This document shows positions 8,688 through 55,766 of a DNA stretch of 64,000 bases, piece by piece. A program made the position numbers and the translations under genes. The stretch is from Brachyspira hampsonii. Lineage in GTDB: Bacteria > Spirochaetota > Brachyspiria > Brachyspirales > Brachyspiraceae. The DNA lies in NCBI RefSeq assembly GCF_002214805.1, contig NZ_CP019914.1:3100001-3164000 (forward strand), in the 5' to 3' direction. Numbering within the stretch: position 1 is the stretch's first letter; every line of letters begins with the position of its first letter. The notes under the pieces are model-generated. The model was not told the origin of the DNA and did not search any database. It worked only from the letters and a program-made list of their open reading frames with translations.

Positions 8688-9476
8688 ATGCGAAAGTTAC
8701 TAATGGTATTTTTGGTATTATGTTTACTTGTACCGGCAGCAGCTTACGCTCAAGATAATACTCAGATACCAATACCAACAATAGGATTAAATGTTGCTCA
8801 AGCTCAAACACCTCAGCAGGTTAGCTTGGGACTTCAAATATTATTTCTTTTAACAATATTGTCATTATCTCCATCTATCATAATAATGACAACAAGTTTT
8901 ATAAGAGTTTCAATAGTACTAAGTTTTGTTCAAAGGGCATTGTCTTTACAAGAGACTCCGCCTAGAGCATTAATAATGGGACTTTCACTATTTCTTACAT
9001 TTTTCATAATGATGCCCACATTGACGCAGGTAAATAATGAGGCACTTCAGCCGTATTTAAATGGTACTATAGGTGTTAATGAATTATACAGCAGAGGCAT
9101 ACAGCCTATAAGAATGTTTATGTTTAACTCTTTACGCGGTGAAAATGGTATGAAGAGTTTAGATTTGTTCTTAAGTATAAGTAATACAAATATAAGACTT
9201 AGAGAGATTCAGACAGTTGATGATTTAAATAGAATTCCTACTATAGTCGTCATACCGGCATTCATCATTAATGAGCTTACAATAGCATTCAAAATGGGAA
9301 TATATTTATTTATACCATTTATAGTTATAGATTTGGTAGTTGCTTCCATACTTATGGCAATGGGTATGATAATGCTTCCGCCTATTATGATATCTTTGCC
9401 GCTTAAAATAATTTTATTTGTTGCGGTAGACGGATGGAAACTTTTGATACTTCAGATAGTACAGAGTTTTCAATAA
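8688..9476 (+). CDS. fliP: Flagellar export apparatus protein FliP
   Basis: FliP forms the core of the export gate in the flagellar basal body with FliQ and FliR. The 262-residue product starts with a cleavable signal peptide (ends near AYAQ, residue 22), as FliP usually does. Typical segments follow: LSLSPSIIIMTTSFIRVSIVLSF, LGLQ, then the periplasmic loop with LREIQTVDDL, and the C-terminal pair of membrane helices with LPPIMISLPLKIILFVAVDGW, the family signature. GGAG precedes the ATG by 8 bases. It opens the export operon; no fliO-like gene is visible upstream. Confidence 0.97.
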   Translation: MRKLLMVFLVLCLLVPAAAYAQDNTQIPIPTIGLNVAQAQTPQQVSLGLQILFLLTILSLSPSIIIMTTSFIRVSIVLSFVQRALSLQETPPRALIMGLSLFLTFFIMMPTLTQVNNEALQPYLNGTIGVNELYSRGIQPIRMFMFNSLRGENGMKSLDLFLSISNTNIRLREIQTVDDLNRIPTIVVIPAFIINELTIAFKMGIYLFIPFIVIDLVVASILMAMGMIMLPPIMISLPLKIILFVAVDGWKLLILQIVQSFQ

Positions 9477-40366: not shown

Positions 40367-40394
40367 TTGACAAAAAATATATATAATATATAAT
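40367..40394 (+). promoter_or_regulatory. Promoter ahead of the AACTCAG repeat
   Basis: TTGACA (40367-40372), 16-base spacer, TATAAT (40389-40394). Expected transcription start is about 40401, eight bases before the first repeat unit and next to an ATG at 40404. Confidence 0.6.
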
Positions 40395-40408
40395 AGTTTA
40401 AATATGAA

Positions 40409-40504
40409 AACTCAGAACTCAGAACTCAGAACTCAGAACTCAGAACTCAGAACTCAGAACTCAGAACTCAGAACTCAGAACTCAGAACTCAGAACTCAGA
40501 ACTC
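40409..40504 (+). repeat. AACTCAG heptanucleotide tandem repeat (13 perfect copies plus partial)
   Basis: AACTCAG is repeated without error from 40409 to 40499, then AACTC. It lies between a strong promoter and the glycosyltransferase gene. An ATG at 40404 opens a frame through the tract (heptapeptide TQNSELR repeated) that stops at 40509-40511, 35 codons in all, without a clear ribosome site. Because 7 is not a multiple of 3, copy-number change alters the frame and the leader length. The 260 bases from there to the gene hold no other gene; a 10-bp hairpin (40514-40523 with 40535-40544) follows the tract. Confidence 0.95.
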
Positions 40505-40776
40505 TCATTAATATACTATAAAATATATTCTATTTTTTATAGTACAAAACCTCTATTGTCATTGCAAGATTTAGTTTTAATAAAGATTTTATTAGACAAT
40601 CAATTTCTGCTTTCAATTAATTATTTGATTATAAAAAATAAATTAATATTTTTTTTAGTTTACTTTAAAAATAAAAAAATAATAACTCTTTTAAGCAAAT
40701 ATATAATTTGATGAATATTCCTTTAATACAAATATATTTAAATATTTTTCATAATTATAAAATTAAAGGAGTTTTT

Positions 40777-41703
40777 ATGTACTTAGCACCTGTAGGTTTA
40801 GTAGTTTATAATAGAATTGAACATACAAAAAGAGTTATTGAAGCTTTAAAGAAAAACACTTTGGCTTCAGATACTGATTTATATATATTTTCAGATGCAC
40901 CTAGTAAAAAAGAAGATGAAGAAGCTGTTTATGAGCTTAGAGAATATTTAAAAACTATAAAAGATGGTTTTAAAAATGTTTATATATATGAAGCTCAAAA
41001 AAATTTAGGTATAAAATATTCCACTGTTAATGCAGTAAACACAATATTTGAGCATCATGAATATTTTATAGGTTTGGAAGATGATATTGAGACAAATAAA
41101 CATTTTCTTGAGTTTATGAATAATGCTTTGAATTATTATAAAGATGATGAAGATGTAATTGCTATAACAGCATTTTCTCATAAACATGCTACTAAAAATC
41201 ATAAACATGATGTTATATTTACATACGCTTTTCATAGTTGGGGTTGGGGTACTTGGAAGAGTAAATGGAATAATATAAATTGGGATACTTGCGATACTTC
41301 TTGGTATAATAAAAGTATTAAGCATAAAATATTAGGAGGTGTTTTTTCTTGGTTTCATTTACTTGCTATAAAAAAGTCTGTTAAGGATAATCTTTATGTT
41401 CAAAATAATTTATGGGATATTTATTATTCATTTACAATGTATAAAAATAAAAAATTATGTGTTTGGCCTTCAAAAAAATCTTTTACAAATAATTTTGGTT
41501 TTGATGGTACAGGCTATCATAAATTCGATTTTCATCATGGCTACTTTGAAAAAAATTTAGATGATGATAATATGAATATAGAGTTTTCATCTGATAAAAA
41601 AATGAATTTCTTTGAGTATCTAATTATATCAATAAAGATTGGTATATTCAGTTGGGCTAATGGATTTATAAGTATGTTTTTTAGTAAATTTCTTAAAAGA
41701 TAA
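40777..41703 (+). CDS. Glycosyltransferase, GT2/GNT-I-like
   Basis: A 308-residue glycosyltransferase. The first ~110 residues carry a GT-A fold: APVGLVVYNRIEHTKRVIEAL, DLYIFSDAP, IYEAQKNLGIKYSTVNAVN and the metal-site DxD-type GLEDDIE (near residue 100). A Trp-rich segment follows (YAFHSWGWGTWKSKWNNINWD), typical of a family of sugar transferases in capsule/LPS loci. The last ~25 residues are hydrophobic and may anchor the protein. The start at 40777 follows AAAGGAG; an in-frame ATG 69 bases upstream has no ribosome site. Regulation may involve the upstream repeat. Confidence 0.78.
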   Translation: MYLAPVGLVVYNRIEHTKRVIEALKKNTLASDTDLYIFSDAPSKKEDEEAVYELREYLKTIKDGFKNVYIYEAQKNLGIKYSTVNAVNTIFEHHEYFIGLEDDIETNKHFLEFMNNALNYYKDDEDVIAITAFSHKHATKNHKHDVIFTYAFHSWGWGTWKSKWNNINWDTCDTSWYNKSIKHKILGGVFSWFHLLAIKKSVKDNLYVQNNLWDIYYSFTMYKNKKLCVWPSKKSFTNNFGFDGTGYHKFDFHHGYFEKNLDDDNMNIEFSSDKKMNFFEYLIISIKIGIFSWANGFISMFFSKFLKR

Positions 41704-48314: not shown

Positions 48315-49172
<858 letters not shown>

Positions 49173-52872: not shown

Positions 52873-52910
52873 AAAAGGTGTGAATCTTCAAAATGATTTG
52901 CACCTTTTTT
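52873..52910 (+). terminator. Terminator of the oad operon
   Basis: AAAGGTGTGAATC (52874-52886) pairs with GATTTGCACCTTT (52895-52907) over 13 positions with two G-T pairs, followed by TTTTTT-rich DNA. It lies 25 bases after the oadB stop. Confidence 0.85.
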
Positions 52911-52933: not shown

Positions 52934-52961
52934 TTGATATATATTATACTATAGATATACT
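52934..52961 (+). promoter_or_regulatory. Promoter ahead of the CAGCAAA repeat
   Basis: TTGATA (52934-52939), 16-base spacer, TATACT (52956-52961). Expected start about 52968; AAGGA at 52966-52970 and an ATG at 52979 precede the repeat. Confidence 0.55.
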
Positions 52962-52982
52962 ATTCAAGGAATGATTTGATGT

Positions 52983-53199
52983 CAGCAAACAGCAAACAGC
53001 AAACAGCAAACAGCAAACAGCAAACAGCAAACAGCAAACAGCAAACAGCAAACAGCAAACAGCAAACAGCAAACAGCAAACAGCAAACAGCAAACAGCAA
53101 ACAGCAAACAGCAAACAGCAAACAGCAAACAGCAAACAGCAAACAGCAAACAGCAAACAGCAAACAGCAAACAGCAAACAGCAAACAGCAAACAGCAAA
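52983..53199 (+). repeat. CAGCAAA heptanucleotide tandem repeat (31 perfect copies)
   Basis: CAGCAAA is repeated 31 times without error. An ATG at 52979, eight bases after AAGGA, opens a frame through the tract (heptapeptide SKQQTAN) that ends a few codons after it, 75 residues in all. The tract has no stop in any frame on either strand, so long ORFs seen here in other frames are artefacts. It lies between a promoter and the glycosyltransferase at 53309. A copy-number change of one or two units would shift the frame. Confidence 0.97.
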
Positions 53200-53308
53200 A
53201 TTCTAAATTAATCAGTCAAAACTTTTTCTTTTTTATTTTAATCAAAAGTAATTTTATCTCTTCATTGCAAATTTTTTTATATAATATTTGTTTTATAGGT
53301 GCTTCATT

Positions 53309-54247
53309 ATGAAAATAAGTGTAATAGTACCTTGTTATAATGAAGAGCTTGTTATAGAAATATTGTATAATAGATTGATTAATGTACTTTCTAATTATAA
53401 TGATTATGAAATAATTTTTATAAATGATGGAAGTTATGATAATACAGAATATATAATCAATAAATACAGAAAAGAAAATAATAATATAAAGCTTTTTTCT
53501 TTTTCAAGAAACTTCGGTCATCAGGCTGCCGTAAGCTGCGGTATTCTTAATTCTTCAGGTGATATAGCTATAATAATAGATGCTGATTTACAAGATCCTC
53601 CAGAGCTTATACCTTCTATGATAGAAGAGCATATTAATTCAAAAGCTAATGTTATATATGCATGCAGAACTTCAAGAGAAGGGGAGAGTTTTATTAAAAA
53701 AATTACTGCTAATTTATTTTATAGATTAGTTAATTTATTATCGGATGTGAAATTTCCTCTTGATACAGGAGATTTTAGATTAATAGATAGAAATGTAATT
53801 AATGCATATAAACAATTTAAAGAAAAGCCCAAATATATACGCGGATTAATTAGCTGGATGGGATTCAAACAAAAACCATTTTTATATAATAGAAAACCTA
53901 GAGAAGCTGGTAAAACTAAGTATACATACAAAAAAATGTTTAATCTTGCTTTAACTGCTGTAATATCATTTTCTACAAAGCCTTTAAGAATATCTTTAAT
54001 TTTAGGTATTTTATCTATGGTTTTGGCTCTTATATTGTCTTTATATGTATTTATAAAATATTTCTTTTTTAATTCTGATATTATAAAAGGCTGGTCTTCT
54101 ATAATGATAACTGTTATTTTTATGGGAGGTGTTCAGCTTTTAAGTTTATCTGTAATTTCTGAATATTTAGCAAAAATATATGAACAAATAAAAAACAGAC
54201 CTGAGTTTATTATAAAAAATAGTGAGGATGAAAATTATGAAAAATAG
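53309..54247 (+). CDS. Family 2 polyprenyl-phosphate sugar transferase (DPM1/GtrB-like)
   Basis: A 312-residue GT2 enzyme of the type that loads a sugar onto polyprenyl phosphate. The GT-A domain has VIVPCYNEELVIEILYNRL, IFINDGSYDNT, FSFSRNFGHQAAVSCGI, and the DxD motif in IIDADLQDPPELIP. Two membrane helices at the C terminus (about 230-255 and 265-290) match the GtrB/ArnC-like group. ATG at 53309 follows AGGTG. The 110 bases before it hold only the end of the repeat region. The next gene, an overlapping GT39 protein, is the expected lipid-sugar user. Confidence 0.87.
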   Translation: MKISVIVPCYNEELVIEILYNRLINVLSNYNDYEIIFINDGSYDNTEYIINKYRKENNNIKLFSFSRNFGHQAAVSCGILNSSGDIAIIIDADLQDPPELIPSMIEEHINSKANVIYACRTSREGESFIKKITANLFYRLVNLLSDVKFPLDTGDFRLIDRNVINAYKQFKEKPKYIRGLISWMGFKQKPFLYNRKPREAGKTKYTYKKMFNLALTAVISFSTKPLRISLILGILSMVLALILSLYVFIKYFFFNSDIIKGWSSIMITVIFMGGVQLLSLSVISEYLAKIYEQIKNRPEFIIKNSEDENYEK

Positions 54248-55766
54248 TATTAAAAGATTTATAAATATAATAATAAAAAATAAAGTTTTTCTCATTTCAT
54301 TTATATTCATCATATTGTCTTATATATTAAGAACAATACTATTAACATTTACAACTTTAATAGATGATGAAGCTCATTATGCATTATGGACAAAGCATTT
54401 ACCGTTCGGATTTTTTGACCATGGCGGTGGTATAGCATTTTTTATGAAACTAAGCATGATCATATTTGGAAATACTGGATTTGGTGTTAGGTTTGGAAGT
54501 ATTTTATTTAGTATATTAGTATCTGTTTTTATTTATATATTTGTAAGTAAAGAAAAAGATGAAAACGCTGCTGTAATATCTGTTATACTCTTTAATACAA
54601 TACCTTTTTTTGCCGGTCTTTCGCTTATTGTAACAATAGATACACCTATGTTTTATTTTTTACTTTTTTCTATAATGGCATATTATAAGGCTATATATTC
54701 AAATAAAAATTATTTTTATTTGGCCGGATTTTTATTTGGATTTAGTTTGCTTTCTAAAGAGGGTGCTATTTTTGTAGGTTCTTCAATATGTTTTTTTATA
54801 TTAATTTCAAATAGAAGAAAAGAGATTTTTTTATACAAAGAGTTTTATTTATCATTTATAGCTGCCGCTTTAGTTTATTTGCCTTTTATAATATATAATT
54901 TTCAAACGGATTTCACATTCATAAAATATGCATTAGACAGACAGCTGCAAAAGCCGGGAAGTATTAATAGAACTTTGGACTTTTGGGGGGCACAAATAGG
55001 TTTATACAGTCCTTTATTTTTTATATTATTTTGTTATTTGATTATAAAAACAACTTTGCAATTTTTTAATAAAAAAGAAACAGAAAATAATTTTTATTTT
55101 GCTTTTATATCTTTAATACCTTTTATTTATATAGTTCAAAAATCTTTCAAAAATAAATTGGAAGCTAATTGGGCTTTATTTATGTATGCTGGAGGTTTAT
55201 TTTTAGTATCGTATTATATATCTAAAAACTGGAATAAAAAATATATAAGAAATCTTTTTCTTTCCAACATTTTACTTTGCAATATAGCTATTTTTATAAT
55301 AATACTTCAATATTTTGTGCCTATTATACCAATAAAAGGAGACCCTACTGATAGATATTATAAATATAATGCTATAAGGTATGATTTAAAAGAATATTAT
55401 AATTTAAATATGGATAAGAATATTAGAATGTTTGCATTAAATTATCAAATTCCTTCAATGATTAATTTTTATATAAATCCGGAAAATGAAGCAGTATGTT
55501 TAAATTGGAATACATATCACCCTACAGTATTTGATTTTTGGTATGATGATAATAACTTTATAGGAGATGATTTATATTATATAACTACTTCTCCTGATAC
55601 AAATTTAGCTTCTAAGTATTTTGATAGTATTGAATATATAACAAACTTTCAATCATATAGAAAACAAATTAATGGAGATAAAAGGTATTTAGATAATTAT
55701 TATATATATTTATGCAGAAATTATAATGGTAAAAAACAGACTATATTTATAAAAGTGAAAAAATAA
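54237..55766 (+). CDS. GT39/ArnT-like membrane glycosyltransferase
   Basis: A 509-residue integral membrane protein with about eleven helices. It has the PMT/ArnT-type start: a first helix, then a periplasmic loop with the catalytic acidic pair in LIDDEAHYALW (near residue 42), and HGGGIAFFMKLS. It probably uses the polyprenyl-linked sugar made by the preceding gene to decorate a surface glycolipid or protein. The start at 54237 overlaps the previous gene by 11 bases. GAGGA lies before it. The acceptor is unknown. Confidence 0.85.
   Translation: MKNSIKRFINIIIKNKVFLISFIFIILSYILRTILLTFTTLIDDEAHYALWTKHLPFGFFDHGGGIAFFMKLSMIIFGNTGFGVRFGSILFSILVSVFIYIFVSKEKDENAAVISVILFNTIPFFAGLSLIVTIDTPMFYFLLFSIMAYYKAIYSNKNYFYLAGFLFGFSLLSKEGAIFVGSSICFFILISNRRKEIFLYKEFYLSFIAAALVYLPFIIYNFQTDFTFIKYALDRQLQKPGSINRTLDFWGAQIGLYSPLFFILFCYLIIKTTLQFFNKKETENNFYFAFISLIPFIYIVQKSFKNKLEANWALFMYAGGLFLVSYYISKNWNKKYIRNLFLSNILLCNIAIFIIILQYFVPIIPIKGDPTDRYYKYNAIRYDLKEYYNLNMDKNIRMFALNYQIPSMINFYINPENEAVCLNWNTYHPTVFDFWYDDNNFIGDDLYYITTSPDTNLASKYFDSIEYITNFQSYRKQINGDKRYLDNYYIYLCRNYNGKKQTIFIKVKK

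Follow-up and report, generated by a model that had tools for sequence, protein, structure and literature searches.

Repeat number in a short leader frame probably decides whether ribosomes reach a glycosyltransferase gene in Brachyspira

Two modules in which a start codon and a heptanucleotide tract precede a linker and a gene lie in the window, that is, the whole 64,000-nt stretch of Brachyspira hampsonii DNA analyzed here, which comes from a genome of one contig and 3,189,639 bp (G000). The CAGCAAA module, made up of the leader at 52979 and the GT2 gene at 53309, is called W2, and the AACTCAG module is called module 1 (Table 1). W2 is set apart from the upstream OAD_beta gene by the terminator-like hairpin that stands between them. 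The tract starts one base after the leader ATG (52979–52981), less than 60 nt from the promoter-like sequence, and the ATG is preceded by an SD, AAGGA, which is also present in the loci L010, L011 and L013. The SD of the GT2 gene is weak (AGGTG). The best NCBIfam matches of the GT2 product, PgfS with 280 bits (cut-off 500) and an ArnC-type profile with 139 bits (cut-off 529), both fall below cut-off. A sequence-only reading of the window had proposed the promoter, AAGGA, the ATG, the 31 copies and a GT2/GT39 pair. AAGGA, the ATG and the copies were confirmed in the sequence, the promoter agrees by consensus match, and profile matches give the pair as PF00535 and PMT_2; the reading was also right that the leader possesses a start and an SD and that the repeat number sets its frame and length.

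Table 1. Features of W2 and module 1, in positions of the window.
Feature	Positions	Strand	Basis
Intrinsic-terminator-like hairpin, 3′ of OAD_beta gene	52873..52908	+	hairpin scan
Promoter-like TTGATA-16-TATACT	52934..52961	+	10/12 matches, consensus match only
AAGGA ribosome-binding sequence of W2 leader	52966..52970	+	read directly
W2 leader ORF at 31 copies, 75 aa, OFF phase, stop TAA 53204	52979..53206	+	
31 x CAGCAAA, all exact	52983..53199	+	counted in sequence
W2 linker, 109 nt, one phase open throughout	53200..53308	+	
TCATTGCAA linker motif, common to other modules	53262..53270	+	
TGA ending W2 leader at copy numbers divisible by 3; ATGA overlap with GT2 start	53310..53312	+	
GT2 glycosyltransferase gene, ATG 53309	53309..54247	+	PF00535, E 1.1e-33
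PMT_2 / GT-C type membrane glycosyltransferase	54237..55766	+	PMT_2, E 5.6e-27
Module 1 promoter-like TTGACA-16-TATAAT	40367..40394	+	read directly
Module 1 leader ORF at 13.7 copies, 35 aa, OFF	40404..40511	+	
13.7 x AACTCAG	40409..40504	+	
Module 1 ON-phase stop TGATG, 68 nt before probable gene start 40777	40709..40713	+	
Module 1 downstream gene, weakly GNT-I/MGAT4-like, own AAAGGAG	40777..41703	+	

The three phases of the W2 leader can be read directly. With the present 31 copies the leader ends at 53204 and is OFF; with 29 copies it ends at 53209, so that in both of these phases the stop lies no more than 12 nt past the tract. With 30 or 27 copies, the leader stays open to the TGA that overlaps the GT2 start codon, a point absent from the sequence-only reading. 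A stop at or near the next start, the mark of translational coupling, is thus found in the ON phase of W2 and not at 31 copies. The GT2 frame upstream of its ATG is closed by the TAA at 53282–53284; therefore no copy number fuses the leader with GT2, an in-gene switch is not available, and the tract as a part of the GT2 ORF was rejected.

Relatives were sought among 26 genomes of the genus Brachyspira. GT2 orthologues, 88–99% identical, occur in five other genomes, all with a CAGCAAA tract, in 7, 11, 4.6, 10 and at least 11 copies (the last at a contig end). The presence of the same tract before the orthologous gene in five other genomes removes the concern of the sequence-only reading that the repeats might be an assembly artefact of one genome. 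The allele of genome G009 has 7 copies against 31, yet its flanks are identical at 998/1000 and 2526/2545 positions, and its leader start region and linker are the same as those of the window. Of the 12 complete loci listed for a GT2 paralogue, 61–65% identical, 5 carry a GAAATCA tract of 10–24 copies and 7 have no tract upstream. Two further tracts lie behind GT2 paralogues and before the next gene (L019:2537-2634, ACAAGCA x14; L021:1424-1495, TTCTG x14). In 11 of 12 loci first compared one phase ends between −13 and +8 of the gene start, the exception being module 1, at −68 from ATG 40777.

The second module repeats the layout with AACTCAG, as the sequence-only reading had claimed, whereas the glycosyltransferase nature of its product is supported weakly (MGAT4 and GNT-I matches with E 0.003–0.007, below the Pfam cut-offs). 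A stretch of 9 nt separates its TATAAT from the leader ATG, with no visible SD. TTGACA, TATAAT, a spacing of 9–10 nt from the −10 box to the ATG and the lack of an SD are common to module 1 and its five readable orthologues, which suggests that their mRNAs may be leaderless. With two units fewer, the leader would run from 40404 to 40711 and reach TGATG; otherwise it ends at 40509 or 40519. In this family, 7 of 8 loci have an ON phase that closes between −55 and −96, some way short of the strong SD that belongs to the gene itself; only L192 fits, at −19. Compared with its shuffles, the module 1 linker has a somewhat more stable fold (z −1.9). In the linker comparison, L195 has lost 27 nt inside the ON frame with the frame kept, and L206 has lost one base, which gives the early end at −96; insertions and deletions therefore appear to support the keeping of the ON frame only in part.

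The recurrence of this design was examined in 120 evenly spaced 20-kb stretches from five genomes (2.4 Mb). There are 24 tracts of at least 7 copies, with units of 4, 5 or 7 bp in 20 of them, against none in one composition shuffle of the 120 stretches. Their distribution is uneven: 11 in G000 (800 kb), 8 in G009 (400 kb), 4 in G010, 1 in G006 and none in the 400-kb sample of G008. By reading, 13 of the 24 tracts, belonging to 12 loci since one tract is compound, follow the plan of start codon, tract, linker and gene. The remainder comprise 5 at gene 3′ ends, 1 inside the 5′ part of a gene and 5 others (two 12-mers, two 3-mers and one of A/T only). The unit length of seven, which the sequence-only reading counted towards a shared strategy, is not special, because units of 4 and 5 bp serve the same design. 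For four downstream genes, orthologue searches gave 116 loci, 61 of which were scanned; 21 have a tract, among them 6 of 17 GT61-type loci, the other 11 having none. The final set holds 41 leader-type loci of 13 gene families, with units of 4, 5 or 7 bp.

The genes behind these leaders are of GT2, GT61, GT29-like, cNMP-binding and arylsulfotransferase type, and several have no family assignment. A clear glycosyltransferase match, or 65% identity to a GT2 relative, was found for 5 of 14 downstream genes in the stretches and the window, and one more match is weak. Conversely, only one of the 13 PF00535 matches in G000 has a tract of at least 4 copies in its 1.5-kb flanks, namely W2 itself. Glycosyltransferases are frequent targets and not the sole ones. 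The shared strategy proposed by the sequence-only reading thus holds insofar as the design recurs in the genus; its restriction to glycosyltransferases does not, given the cNMP-binding and two arylsulfotransferase-type genes.

Several choices define the set. The 61-locus scan skipped two-letter units and passed over the AAAC tracts of L240 (the same as L074) and L241; L241 is not among the 41 loci. In L241 (G005, reverse strand) the AAAC tract reaches almost to the SD of the gene, and the linker seems to be lost in that species. The octamer locus L196 was left out, its gene start being unclear, and loci reached twice (for instance L101/L214, L074/L240 and L088/L035) were counted once. "Family" is a loose term where the similarity of L292 and L299 to the GT29-like query is confined to about 40 N-terminal residues, and that of several members of the 897-aa family to an N-terminal domain. 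In L014, L015, L188 and L261 the tract is at a contig end; their copy numbers are minima, and they were excluded from the ATG and ON/OFF counts. No ATG enters the tract in L190 and L292.

The open phases were compared with a background of upstream regions of up to 1,150 genes from the stretches and the window, chosen regardless of tracts (445–1,096 per linker length). A phase ending at −30 or later is present in 34 of 41 loci (14.2 expected) and, by family, in 12 of 13 (4.79 expected, P 6e-6), and a phase ending within 15 nt of the gene start in 9 of 13 families (1.64 expected, P 6e-7), where both limits were set post hoc after the loci had been inspected, and the family representatives, the gene starts of L089 and L095 and the strand of L101 and L157 were chosen by the analyst. 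The 7 loci that miss the −30 limit all belong to the module 1 family. The open phase of the W2 linker alone is unsurprising (shuffle p 0.47, background rate 0.35), and shuffle tests of single linkers up to 130 nt are weak (p 0.17–0.79); the case therefore rests on the whole set. The six GT61-type loci with a tract have linkers of 94–195 nt, and all their ON phases end at +11 or +14. Overall, the ON stops cluster at +1, +8 and +11.

The repeat units and the position of the ATG also point to translation of the leader. Among the distinct units (19 in the 41 loci, plus that of L106), 20 of 20 are free of stops in the sense direction and 10 of 20 in the antisense direction (P 0.001). In 31 of 37 evaluable loci an ATG is found no more than 20 nt ahead of the tract, compared with a null rate of 27%. 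Only eight of 35 readable leaders are ON and 27 OFF, whereas about 13.7 ON would be expected if phases were random, given a single open phase in 29 loci and two in 6; OFF is commoner than chance, though many of the loci are related. In 8 linker pairs, which overlap, 3 stops were gained in the ON frame against 11.9 expected and 33 in the other two frames against 30.4, a test that is partly circular because the ON frames were chosen as the open ones. In the same pairs, synonymous changes (47, with 42.8 expected) and non-synonymous changes (128, with 124.0 expected) look neutral. A conserved leader peptide is not favored, since amino-acid change looks neutral and the motif shared by the linkers stands in all three frames.

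From these observations a switch can be proposed for W2. Ribosomes would start at ATG 52979 and translate the tract, whose unit contains no stop in any frame; we infer the translated position from this stop avoidance and the SD-preceded ATG. Slipped-strand mispairing in growing cells would alter the copy number and shift the frame by one base per copy. At copy numbers divisible by 3, the ribosome would cross the linker and end at the TGA, and ribosomes would be handed to the weak GT2 start, so that GT2 and PMT_2 proteins are made. With other copy numbers, translation would end just past the tract, with about 100 nt still to go to GT2, and expression would fall through loss of coupling and possibly also through Rho polarity on the naked linker. 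The OFF state may be leaky, because the GT2 start has some SD. The repeat count would in this manner probably decide whether ribosomes reach a sugar-transferring gene, and GT2 output, and presumably the surface phenotype, would vary with it.

By the features that can be tested in sequence, W2, which is real and looks functional, qualifies as an SSR contingency locus: it has a long perfect tract of a short unit not divisible by 3, and the copy number differs between near-identical alleles (31 and 7). Slipped-strand phase variation acting through the leader ORF and translational coupling is the best reading and, in our judgment, a fairly probable one. Against it speak the module 1 family, whose ON phases mostly end too early, the 7 of 12 GT2 paralogues and 11 of 17 GT61-type loci that have no tract, and the low share of ON leaders. 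Regardless of how the last step works, it is highly probable that switching resides in the leader frame. The stop/start overlap together with the weak SD suggests coupling at W2, and coupling at such overlaps is somewhat probable as the main last step.

The linkers also share a sequence element. TCATTGCAA, found in the window in the W2 linker and at 40559 in module 1, recurs between tract and gene in roughly half of the modules. Of 23 representative linkers, 12 contain ATTGCAA, compared with 27 of 1,125 background regions, and TCATTGC is enriched about 57-fold (8 against 0.14 expected), in linkers that are not fully independent and are longer than the background (mean 121 versus 106 nt). The element stands in different frames across linkers, and therefore acts, if at all, as DNA or RNA. 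TCATTGCAAR has 19 occurrences in the whole genome and its reversed control 1. In 60 stretches and the window, only 4 sites of TCATTGCAA are intergenic, and T[CT]ATTGCAA, in either spelling, has 29 more sites, inside ORFs. A dispersed intergenic repeat was rejected, as 3 of the 4 intergenic sites are in tract linkers, and so was a promoter −35 box, with no fitting −10 seen by eye. No Rfam match was obtained up to E 1, and no plasmid copies were present in the collection searched. In L121, on the minus strand near 9091, a module whose tract has apparently been lost was noted by eye, in which a promoter-like site, an ATG, two ACAAGCT units, a linker with TTATTGCAA and a lipoprotein-like gene follow one another.

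A more ambitious reading takes the module as a portable Brachyspira phase-switch cassette placed before many unrelated surface genes. Its order would be a promoter, a start codon, a stop-proof repeat, a linker with the conserved TCATTGCAA and an ON-phase stop overlapping the next start; switching would proceed by ribosome delivery, not by attenuation or in-gene frameshift. In this full form, with coupling as the switch and the element as an active part, the proposal is tentative and on balance doubtful.

Tracts of other kinds were observed as well. A second pentamer class, AGAAC or AGACC, lies at gene 3′ ends in polysaccharide and sialic-acid-type operons (L085:11499-11565, L085:14158-14197, L104:5602-5645, L104:8213-8261 and L104:10383-10431), in genes for a pyruvyltransferase, a cytidylyltransferase and a methyltransferase and in two without assignment. 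A hairpin of the ACAACCTATG..TTGC..CATAGG type follows 4 of these 5 tracts, which would change the protein tails or the way in which the following gene is coupled. One cNMP-binding gene has CAAGACA x19.6 directly in its 5′ part, now out of phase (L106:486-622, minus), and another lies behind a separate leader with compound GTTATCC x12 and TATC x13, now ON (L067:18462-18591). An arylsulfotransferase-type gene behind an ACAAC tract (L078:10129-11641) encodes 502 aa in G009, and in the window's genome 180 aa followed by a separate ORF of 262 aa. By eye, the genes behind the tracts at L095:6437-6488 and L089:10695-10915 (minus) look interrupted near their start, and they may be decaying or represent a second level of variation. 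Perfect 12-bp tracts of 6–8 copies in L113, L118 and L122 would not shift the frame. In the window, TTA x16 (48430-48477) lies inside the minus-strand ORF 48315-49172.

Alternatively, the leader may be the switch while the last step is transcriptional, as in pil1: a long leader would shield the linker and block Rho or hairpin termination, and the start-codon overlap would be a by-product. L104a (z −4.8) and L173 (z −5.5) have strong terminator-like hairpins beneath the ON frame, and weaker ones occur in the linkers of L292, L157, L230 and L258. Rho is encoded in this genome (646 bits), the z of the module 1 linker points the same way, and the leaders of that family, mostly ending 55–96 nt before a gene with a strong SD, fit polarity better than coupling. 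Such a mechanism has been shown for S. gallolyticus pil1, according to the passages available of PMC3894217. Nevertheless, scanning found no hairpin in 35 of the 41 linkers, including W2 and its five orthologues; for W2, fold and hairpin scans alike found no terminator hairpin. Nor does polarity require the clustering of ON stops at the gene start. As a general account the transcriptional last step is rather unlikely. We think that the lineage uses leader translation as the switch, with a last step that differs by locus.

The tract might instead remain untranslated and act as a spacer: the distance that it sets from promoter to gene would adjust transcription or the stability of the mRNA, as reported for H. 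influenzae hmw1A/hmw2A. The short distance to the promoter-like sequence agrees with this, and heptanucleotide promoter repeats are known (accessible part of PMC2651432). The spacer explanation is nonetheless improbable, for it predicts neither an ATG directly before the tract, nor stop avoidance on the sense strand, nor units that are mostly not multiples of 3, nor one phase that stays open up to the start of the gene. That the repeats are hypervariable and neutral, without influence on regulation, is less probable still. The tract is evidently not essential to such genes, as 12 of the 13 PF00535 matches of this genome, many orthologues and paralogues and the G008 sample lack one; the phase ends, the stop-free units, the ATG position, the unit lengths, the 31 versus 7 copies and the ON-frame stop counts all speak against neutrality. 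Classic in-gene phase variation, with the tract as the 5′ end of the glycosyltransferase ORF, has a counterpart in the CAAGACA tract just before the cNMP-binding frame of L106 and is refuted for W2 by the TAA closing the GT2 frame, which leaves it hardly any probability.

If leader-frame switching with coupling holds, many surface genes of intestinal spirochaetes would switch at random through one leader design, which would bear on serotyping, the choice of vaccine antigens and strain heterogeneity. Annotation would be affected, since the state of a gene must be read from an easily overlooked leader. The phase-variable leader peptide of the pil1/pil3 type would be extended to a genus-wide strategy, and the natural variants would make coupling versus attenuation testable.

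In H. influenzae, contingency tracts form part of the enzyme ORF itself, towards its 5′ end, whereas W2 has a separate leader; lex2A is located directly upstream of lex2B and controls it. The tetranucleotide contingency genes of that species (mod, lic1A, lgtC and others) resemble W2 in their perfect repeats, whose unit length is not a multiple of 3, and in their association with surface-glycan genes, as far as the passages available of PMC2651432 and PMC3116884 describe them. The same passages give CAAG as the lex2A repeat (a table in PMC2651432) and lex2B as a glycosyltransferase gene (PMC3116884), so that the pair is like W2 in having repeats in the first gene and a glycosyltransferase as the second. 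The heptanucleotide repeats of hmw1A/hmw2A likewise lie upstream of a surface gene and are reported to tune the promoter region (in the same part of PMC2651432), whereas the W2 tract is in a predicted translated leader, with the SD-preceded ATG beginning 4 nt before the tract and a stop-free unit.

Within Brachyspira, no description of repeat-driven phase variation was found in the open-access literature, covered mostly as titles and abstract starts, and one may exist elsewhere. Tandem repeats serve there for strain typing (PMC5763801). In the passages available, "phase variation" is a remark on Vsp proteins (PMC5415613) or occurs in the reference list (PMC4267127), and the terms "leader peptide", "attenuation" and "gallolyticus" are absent from a 2025 review (PMC11868660).

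The closest described case is Streptococcus gallolyticus pil1, and the statement of the sequence-only reading that no such system was described is partly wrong: in pil1/pil3, a repeat-filled, phase-variable leader peptide controls the next genes (PMC3894217, passages available). According to this source, a promoter, an SD-preceded ATG and repeats inside a short leader ORF are common to pil1/pil3 and W2, the unit being a pentanucleotide there and a heptanucleotide here; copy number moves the leader stop, the longer leader is ON, as in our reading of W2, and a surface structure lies downstream, comparable to the Brachyspira modules. W2 has the leader ORF with start and SD and a leader length set by copy number, yet by the fold and hairpin scans no intrinsic terminator between tract and gene that a long leader would reach, and is therefore not a strict pil1-type attenuator. 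Where pil1 has a premature stem-loop terminator (same source), the ON stop of W2 overlaps the next start codon. L104a and L173, with their hairpins, look like the pil1 version, and the Brachyspira set differs from pil1 in extending over 13 gene families with many different units.
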